From Anoxynatronum buryatiense (GTDB taxonomy: Bacteria > Bacillota > Clostridia > Peptostreptococcales > Tindalliaceae), in the NCBI RefSeq assembly GCF_900182905.1, contig NZ_FXUF01000004.1:186001-250000 (forward strand): a stretch of 64,000 nt of DNA. Reading direction: 5' to 3'. The notes beneath the pieces were generated by a model. That model made no database searches and was not told the DNA's origin. It saw only the letters and a list, made by a program, of their open reading frames with translations. A program made the translations under genes and the position numbers. Shown piece after piece: positions 54,570 to 55,484 of this stretch (positions are counted from its first letter, which is position 1; every line of letters begins with the position of its first letter).

Positions 54570-55088
54570 ATGGATCAATCGATTAATGCCAGAGCAATCA
54601 TCCTGGCCGCCTCTGCCATTGGCGTGGGTTTTGCCATGATTGCCGGAATTGGTCCCGGAATCGGCCAGGGTTATGCGGCCGGTAAAGGAGCTGAAGCCGT
54701 CAGCATGAACCCCAAAAGCGGCAAACAGGTGACCATGATCATGCTTCTGGGGGCTGCCGTGGCAGAAACCTCGGGAATTCTGGCCCTGGTGGTGGCGCTG
54801 ATTATGCTGTATGCCAATCCACTGGTGGGTTTTACCACCGGCACCATTGTGGTGGCAGCCTCTGCCATCGGTGCAGGTCTGGCCATGATCGCGGGCATTG
54901 GCCCCGGTGTTGGTCAGGGTTATGCAGCGGGTAAGGGAACTGAAACCGTGGGCAAGCGCCCGGCGCTCCAGGGTCCCATCATCCGCACCATGTTTTTGGG
55001 GCAGGCAGTGGCCCAAACCACTGGCATCTACGCACTGATCATCGCGCTGGTACTGCTCTTTGCCAATCCGCTGATCAGGCTGTTGTAA
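54570..55088 (+). CDS. Duplicated four-helix c subunit (V-type-like c1)
   Basis: The 172-residue protein is two c hairpins in tandem, clearly similar to each other ([52 protein letters not shown]). Hairpin 1 keeps Gln33, Glu66 and Thr67 but has Leu71 in place of the usual Tyr. Hairpin 2 has Gln149 where the ion-binding Glu should be. One functional site per four helices resembles the V-type c1 of the Acetobacterium woodii Na+ ATP synthase, which sits in a mixed ring with F-type c subunits. Confidence 0.92.
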
Positions 55089-55217
55089 AGATACTGCTGC
55101 TCCGTTAATCATCATCTCAACAAGATGCTTTCTGACCCCTGTTAAAAGGGAAATGACAAAAAAGAAGCACCATGAAAGTTCAGAAAAATTGAACGAATGA
55201 GAAGGAGGAAAATGAAT
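55089..55217 (+). other. Spacer between the two c-subunit genes
   Basis: This 129-base gap is unusually large for the operon. It holds no hairpin with a T-tract and ends in AGAAGGAGG for the next gene. It may allow separate translation control of the two c subunits, which are needed in unequal amounts. Confidence 0.4.
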
Positions 55218-55484
55218 ATGGAACCAATTACAGGTAGAGCATTAGTACTGGCGGCTTCCGCCATTGGCGCAGGACTGGCCATGATTGCAGGGATCGGCCC
55301 CGGGATCGGTCAGGGGTATGCGGCCGGTAAAGGCGCAGAAGGTGTGGGGCGCCAGCCGGAAGCACAGGGTGACATCGTCAGAACCATGCTGCTGGGAGCG
55401 GCCGTTGCTGAAACCACCGGTATTTACGGTCTGATCATTGCGCTGATTCTGCTGTTTGCCAACCCGCTGGTGGGCATGCTGTAG
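55218..55484 (+). CDS. atpE: F-type c subunit with complete Na+ site
   Basis: The 88-residue hairpin protein, with ATG 55218 as start, numbers exactly like the Ilyobacter tartaricus c subunit: Gln32, Val63, Glu65, Thr66, Thr67 and Tyr70, the Na+ ligands. [13 protein letters not shown] forms the inner helix. It is nearly identical in its core to both halves of the upstream c1, so c1 probably arose by duplication and fusion of such a gene. Confidence 0.95.

Follow-up and report, generated by a model that had tools for sequence, protein, structure and literature searches.

A Sodium-Driven ATP Synthase Rotor That Probably Mixes an Ordinary c Subunit with a Doubled c1 Lacking One Ion Site of Two

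We find two adjacent rotor genes in an F-type ATP synthase operon of Anoxynatronum buryatiense, encoding an ordinary subunit c and a doubled subunit c1, and the sodium-driven rotor that they specify probably mixes the two, c1 having lost one of its two ion sites. Judging from their sequences, we hold with high confidence that the two genes encode rotor subunits of a Na+-coupled F-type ATP synthase like those of Acetobacterium woodii and Clostridium aceticum, in which most units of the ring are c and c1 is built in among them, its own junction dead and its outer interfaces live. The pair is far beyond chance, since Glu66 and Gln149 of c1 are invariant among 38 aligned c1 proteins and the pair recurs in 41 of 78 loci; it is real, ordinary for its lineage and a further case of the design known from those two species. 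The genes lie in a stretch of 64,000 nucleotides (contig NZ_FXUF01000004.1, positions 186,001 to 250,000), which we call the window and whose relevant features are collected in Table 1.

Table 1. Rotor genes, surrounding operon and second ATPase operon in the window (positions are those of the window)
Feature	Position	Strand	Basis or remark
Second F-like operon, N-ATPase type	10175-16823	+	about 36 kb from the hybrid-rotor operon
ATPase_gene1-like small membrane protein	53170-53409	+	PF09527, E=4.1e-19; opens the operon
AtpI-like protein, candidate rotor-assembly factor	53410-53832	+	PF03899, E=1.1e-13; GTG start
atpB, stator subunit a	53833-54543	+	PF00119, E=1e-52
atpE1, subunit c1, two hairpins	54570-55088	+	172 residues; two PF00137 stretches; Shine-Dalgarno AAGGAGG
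Gap between c1 and c, 129 bases	55089-55217	+	length not conserved, fold not unusual
atpE2, two-helix Na+-type c	55218-55484	+	88 residues; PF00137; Shine-Dalgarno AAGGAGG upstream
atpF, subunit b	55541-56047	+	named by reading; counterparts in relatives
atpH, subunit delta	56035-56583	+	named by reading; counterparts in relatives
atpA, subunit alpha	56592-58121	+	named by reading; counterparts in relatives
atpG	58140-59060	+	named by translation reading only
atpD	59097-60494	+	named by translation reading only
atpC	60503-60913	+	named by translation reading only; end of the operon

Subunit c1 is a four-helix protein with a single carboxylate, located in hairpin 1. Residues 66 and 149 fall at aligned positions of hairpins 1 and 2 and are Glu (GAA) and Gln (CAA), codons that differ by a single base, and the tyrosine position is occupied by Leu71 in hairpin 1 and by Tyr154 in hairpin 2. 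Among the Na+ ligands, hairpin 1 lacks only Tyr and hairpin 2 lacks only Glu. The ordinary two-helix c in the same operon carries the complete motif (Gln, Val, Glu, Thr, Thr, Tyr). A first-pass annotation of the DNA had read just this arrangement, namely a four-helix c1 with Gln149 in place of the acid of its second hairpin and Glu66 kept in the first, placed ahead of a full Na+ c gene, and the codons, the ligand motif, the PF00137 matches and the gene positions all confirm it. The 129-base spacing that it gave after the c1 stop also holds with the c start at 55218: a mechanical open reading frame begins at 55197, and we read c as 88 residues from the ATG at 55218 because the AAGGAGG precedes that ATG and the 55197 start lies upstream of it. 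PF00137 matches four places in the whole genome, two in c1, one in c and one in the second ATPase operon of the window. Over 222 bases, DNA identity is 73.0% between hairpin 2 and c, 69.4% between hairpin 1 and c and 67.1% between the two hairpins of c1, values that rule out recent conversion between c1 and c.

A promoter scan of positions 53000-56000 returned four promoter-like sites (shuffle mean 2.4), one of them on the forward strand (53055) and none within the gap between c1 and c, and a terminator scan of the same region returned one terminator-like site, on the reverse strand (shuffle mean 3.5); these scans carry no weight. The operon is preceded by a UDP-GlcNAc 2-epimerase gene (PF02350, 51908-53086), and a protein that resembles this enzyme by eye also precedes the atp operon in the distant locus L155, which is described below.

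The nearest solved protein to c1 is 4bem_J, the c1 of the A. woodii ring (phmmer, E=4e-61), whose hairpins carry AETSG and AQTTG, respectively, as in c1 here. A structural model predicted from the 38 aligned c1 proteins (mean pLDDT 84.3) has four long helices and superposes on 4bem_J with a Z of 24.6 (169 residues, 2.2 A), in agreement with the resemblance to the A. woodii mixed-rotor genes that the annotation had proposed. The A. woodii rotor (c1 with c2/c3, PDB 4BEM) likewise combines a two-hairpin c1, with Glu then Gln and with non-Tyr then Tyr at +5, and a c with the same Na+ motif, its c1 being 62-64% identical to ours over the aligned chain; it differs in having two identical c genes, according to PMC7911925, against one here. 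The C. aceticum genes atpE1/atpE2, as described in the same source, comprise a single c1 and a single c2 gene, arranged as they are here and with no third c gene, and share the Q....ET and Q....QT motifs (PMC7911925); the ATPase of that organism is reported there to be stimulated to about 200% by NaCl (PMC7911925). C. aceticum is an acetogen, whereas the genome studied here has no match to PF03598 in a search whose control set held no bacterial acetogen; otherwise we found no difference of kind from the system described.

We scanned genome contigs and kept 78 loci, 55 of which encode a c protein of at least two hairpins and 22 only single-hairpin c, the remaining one (L059) being cut by a contig end. 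One two-hairpin gene together with one single-hairpin gene is found in 41 of the 78, mostly in the order atpI1-atpI-a-c1-c-b-delta-alpha. The best single-hairpin c seen in a search with c1 reached only 3.5e-35, so that a level of E<=1e-37 picks out multi-hairpin proteins; at this level, 81 of 297 genomes from the order have a match, as do 13 of 391 drawn from the class, 5 of which belong to that order or are closer still. The source genome is counted in both. Six of seven genomes of the family match, again including the source genome, and the one that does not (G002) is 75% complete. The annotation had called the mixed rotor of A. woodii unusual, a word that calls for some qualification in view of the 81 matching genomes of the order. 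Brandt and Mueller (2015) reportedly listed twelve species in which one c gene is F-type and one is V-type. Some loci depart from the common arrangement: L015/L179, L180 and L181 have two c1 genes in the operon, L029, L169 and L170 carry, ahead of atpI1, a further c gene of three hairpins besides the two-hairpin c1 and the c within the operon (L029 and L169 apparently being the same contig), and L058, which we set aside, has two single c genes.

The collected loci, which come from some of the genomes with a match, yield 107 distinct multi-hairpin c proteins, 80 with two hairpins, 15 with three, 7 with four, 4 with five and 1 with six. One of the five-hairpin proteins (L118/L156) is cut by a contig end, and the first hairpin of L185 is incomplete at helix 1. 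Three- and four-hairpin forms are present in the single-contig genomes G038, G120, G236 and G471 and in the isolate Acidaminobacter hydrogenoformans (L032), which makes assembly error an unlikely explanation for them. The six-hairpin frame, in L155, strings together three pairs that resemble c1, and an ordinary c gene comes after it; it is known from a single draft genome of 100 contigs (G017), G028 having a relative that is cut. The longer forms usually occur in the context atpI1-atpI-a-cN-c-b-delta-alpha, although a few loci are cut or lack one match. F-type operons that encode c proteins with four to six hairpins are those of L155 (G017), L056, L041, L053, L157 and L174; in L041, L053 and L056, most middle hairpins also lack the helix-1 Pro and Gln. 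Several hairpins per chain are also described for the A/V-type c of Methanocaldococcus (3 hairpins) and Methanopyrus (13) (PMC2359735), but F-type operons are not their setting, and the Methanopyrus protein is said in that source to keep its ligands in every hairpin, in contrast to the F-type relatives here, in which most internal ones are lost.

How c1 would bind ions depends on which hairpins share a site. In Na+ c-rings, one hairpin provides Glu and the helix-1 Gln, and its neighbor provides a backbone Val, Ser/Thr and the locking Tyr (PMC3692424, PMC2359735), as in I. tartaricus, where Glu65A/Gln32A meet Ser66B/Val63B/Tyr70B (PMC2359735, PMC3692424), and, within a single chain, in E. hirae K, where Glu139/Gln110 meet Thr64/Leu61/Tyr68 (PMC2359735). 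The acid of E. hirae K is in hairpin 2 and its Tyr in hairpin 1, and therefore the acid of a hairpin meets the Tyr of the preceding hairpin. The model of c1 has the same hairpin order as E. hirae K (2bl2_A; 152 residues, 3.4 A, Z 13.4), and its superposition on K agrees with this direction of pairing; this is not strong proof, as helical bundles may reach Z values of up to about 13 through their common arrangement only, and the 2bl2 match alone is weak evidence for direction.

Under this pairing, the 152 internal junctions of the 107 proteins follow a simple pattern: 141 lack both Tyr and Glu (with Gln instead), 8 have Tyr and Glu, 3 have Glu without Tyr and none has Tyr without Glu. The opposite pairing gives a mixture (93 Glu/Tyr, 16 Gln/no Tyr, 24 Glu/no Tyr and 19 Gln/Tyr). 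On the outer faces, Glu is present in all 107 first hairpins and Tyr in 104 of 106 last hairpins, the other two having Phe and the cut five-hairpin protein being left out of this count. Since the 107 proteins are related, the junction counts do not represent independent events. In the eight complete junctions, the first of the two hairpins is of the Gln-Tyr kind and the second of the Glu-Leu kind, as though two c1 units had been fused. The three junctions with Glu and no Tyr occur in L037, L045 and L157, whose middle hairpins are possible intermediates or may hold a weaker further site. The helix-1 Gln is missing in 7 hairpins, every one behind a dead junction; it is retained in the last hairpin of all 107 proteins, and the acid position of the last hairpin is Gln in 106 of 106 closed proteins. 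The near-invariance of Gln149 and of the last-hairpin helix-1 Gln points to selection on the internal site of c1, as opposed to simple decay, and the site may have a structural role; selection would keep it neutral and polar, perhaps so that it can pass the stator without holding an ion.

These data bear on the resemblance of c1 to the V-type K/c subunit of E. hirae (NtpK, 2BL2), which also has four helices, one carboxylate and a similar fold and hairpin order, and whose fold a Foldseek search with the c1 model matches alongside A. woodii c1. Subunits with four helices and one carboxylate have been termed V-type in the literature, and c1 might by analogy act like K, with a live site between its own hairpins and weakened outer interfaces. 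We regard this as very improbable: K has its acid in hairpin 2, its Tyr in hairpin 1 and its live site within the subunit (PMC2359735), but in c1 the positions of acid and Tyr are reversed, with Glu in the first hairpin in all 107 proteins, and in the longer relatives the pairing that such a site requires would join Glu with Leu/Phe at 24 junctions and Gln with Tyr at 19. As to descent, all 28 phmmer matches to c1 at E<=0.001 are F-type c, 2bl2 is not among them and V/A-type subunit D has no match in the genome, and we ruled out a V-type import.

The most likely reading of the c1 sequence is instead that its internal interface is dead and both outer interfaces are live, which reverses the arrangement of V-type K. 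In this mechanism, c1 is a tandemly duplicated F-type Na+ c hairpin, and both of its losses, Leu71 for Tyr and Gln149 for Glu, would fall at one interface, its internal junction, which, given the known geometry of the site, should for that reason not bind Na+; the predicted contact between Gln149 and Leu71 comes from the superposition and the literature. Glu66 would complete a site with the Tyr of a neighboring c, and Tyr154 would complete the site of the other neighbor. A c1 would then replace two hairpins in the ring and supply one site, so that each turn of a ring of 11 hairpins containing a single c1 would move 10 Na+, or 3.3 Na+ per ATP instead of 3.7, and the cost of this lower ratio would be a greater sodium-motive force per ATP. 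The A. woodii ring is described as having 11 hairpins, a 9:1 ratio (PMC8904574) and 10 sites, for 3.3 Na+ per ATP (PMC8904574, PMC7793690); what is true of A. woodii in this respect need not hold here, where the dose of c genes differs and other ratios may apply.

The annotation had expected a changed ion-to-ATP ratio, and a lower one follows if c1 enters the ring. The subunit could be expressed yet stay outside a working, homomeric c ring, as an assembly factor or a minor or vestigial product, given that c by itself has all of the ligands for a complete ring and that c1 can be absent, as in G008 and G014 of the same order, which show one single-hairpin-sized c match each and none at E<=1e-37. 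We consider this quite unlikely, as the invariance of Glu66 and Gln149 across the 38 sequences indicates strong constraint, the c1 gene has a full Shine-Dalgarno sequence and the crystallized ring of A. woodii contains a homologue of c1 (4bem_J), at the 9:1 ratio reported there (PMC8904574).

The annotation had suggested that the gap between c1 and c bears on stoichiometry, and this was not borne out: the gap is 40 bases in a locus of the same genus (L005) whose c1 is 98% identical, 54, 67, 197 and 226 bases in four loci of the same family and 10 to 459 bases across the wider set of c1-c pairs, and the gap RNA does not fold in any unusual way (z -0.69, with 52 of 200 shuffled sequences folding equally well). 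Comparing gap lengths, RNA fold and Shine-Dalgarno sequences, we found no tie between the gap and the subunit ratio, and the 40-226-base variation in the five genus and family loci, the z value and the identical AAGGAGG cores of c1 and c rule out the gap as a translational regulator in the form proposed. Several c1 copies per ring, which would take the ion number well below 10, are in our judgment unlikely; the c1:c gene dose is higher here, with one c gene against the two given for A. woodii in PMC7911925, and operons with two c1 genes exist in relatives, whereas the shared Shine-Dalgarno core and the lack of any ratio-setting gap structure among the features compared speak neither way.

We also built trees of individual hairpins, first of 219 rows (83 columns) and then of 155 rows (81 columns), by short searches that left most forks weak. 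In the larger tree, every one of the 58 first hairpins falls in a starred set of 76 rows, together with 17 of 18 middle hairpins and one row labelled single. In the smaller, 27 middle hairpins have Gln but lack Tyr, and 26 of them fall in one starred set of 27 rows apart from the last hairpins, a placement made unsure by long branches, and the twenty-seventh (L166) groups with the last hairpins. The 155-row tree has few well-supported forks and requires at least three changes between Glu and Gln; Gln probably arose more than once, the number not being secured.

Taken with the longer proteins, c1 appears as the shortest member of a series. We somewhat favor the view that F-type rotor proteins of two to six fused hairpins obey one rule, by which sites survive where they face other rotor units (or where two c1 units are fused) and nearly all other junctions are disabled on both sides, and that lineages keeping about 11 hairpins would thereby set the ions per turn at 10, 9, 8 or even 7 with ring size unchanged, as in a series of gears. 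Searches of one open-licence library returned no earlier report of the longer F-type c forms or of the junction rule.

The window holds a second F-like operon, which looks, by its sequence matches, like an N-type ATPase. Its genes run beta, epsilon, two short frames, a, c, b with a delta-like tail, alpha and gamma; a (TIGR03306), alpha (TIGR03324) and epsilon (TIGR03166) score above the curated cut-offs, beta (TIGR03305) just under and b (TIGR03321) under. The order expected of N-ATPases has beta and epsilon first and AtpQ and AtpR between epsilon and a, according to PMC5376962, and the two short membrane-protein frames at this place (about 12000-12550) are AtpQ/AtpR-like by reading only. The c of this operon (about 13346-13612) has the Na+ ligands P, Q, E, S, T and Y, and G001 and G006, which belong to the same genus and family, have a similar c match, G003-G005 being absent among the matches listed. 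Directly before the operon, at 1055-9838, are a BCCT betaine/choline transporter gene (PF02028) and genes for a glycine/sarcosine/betaine reductase (PF07355, PF09338), with more frames that read like the latter at 5430-7891. Elsewhere in the genome, rnfC has four matches over the curated cut-off, which would be fitting for a Na+ economy if the complexes pump Na+.

The ion-to-ATP ratio decides how small a gradient still yields ATP, and it is a central number for an energy-poor anaerobe. The pair in the window adds an example of a solution that is already known, and the wider multi-hairpin family matters more; specialists would take most interest in the family-wide junction rule and the longer rotor proteins. 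The family offers natural rotors in which the number of sites may vary while the number of hairpins is fixed, and comparison of these relatives could be used to ask whether site number alone sets the ratio.
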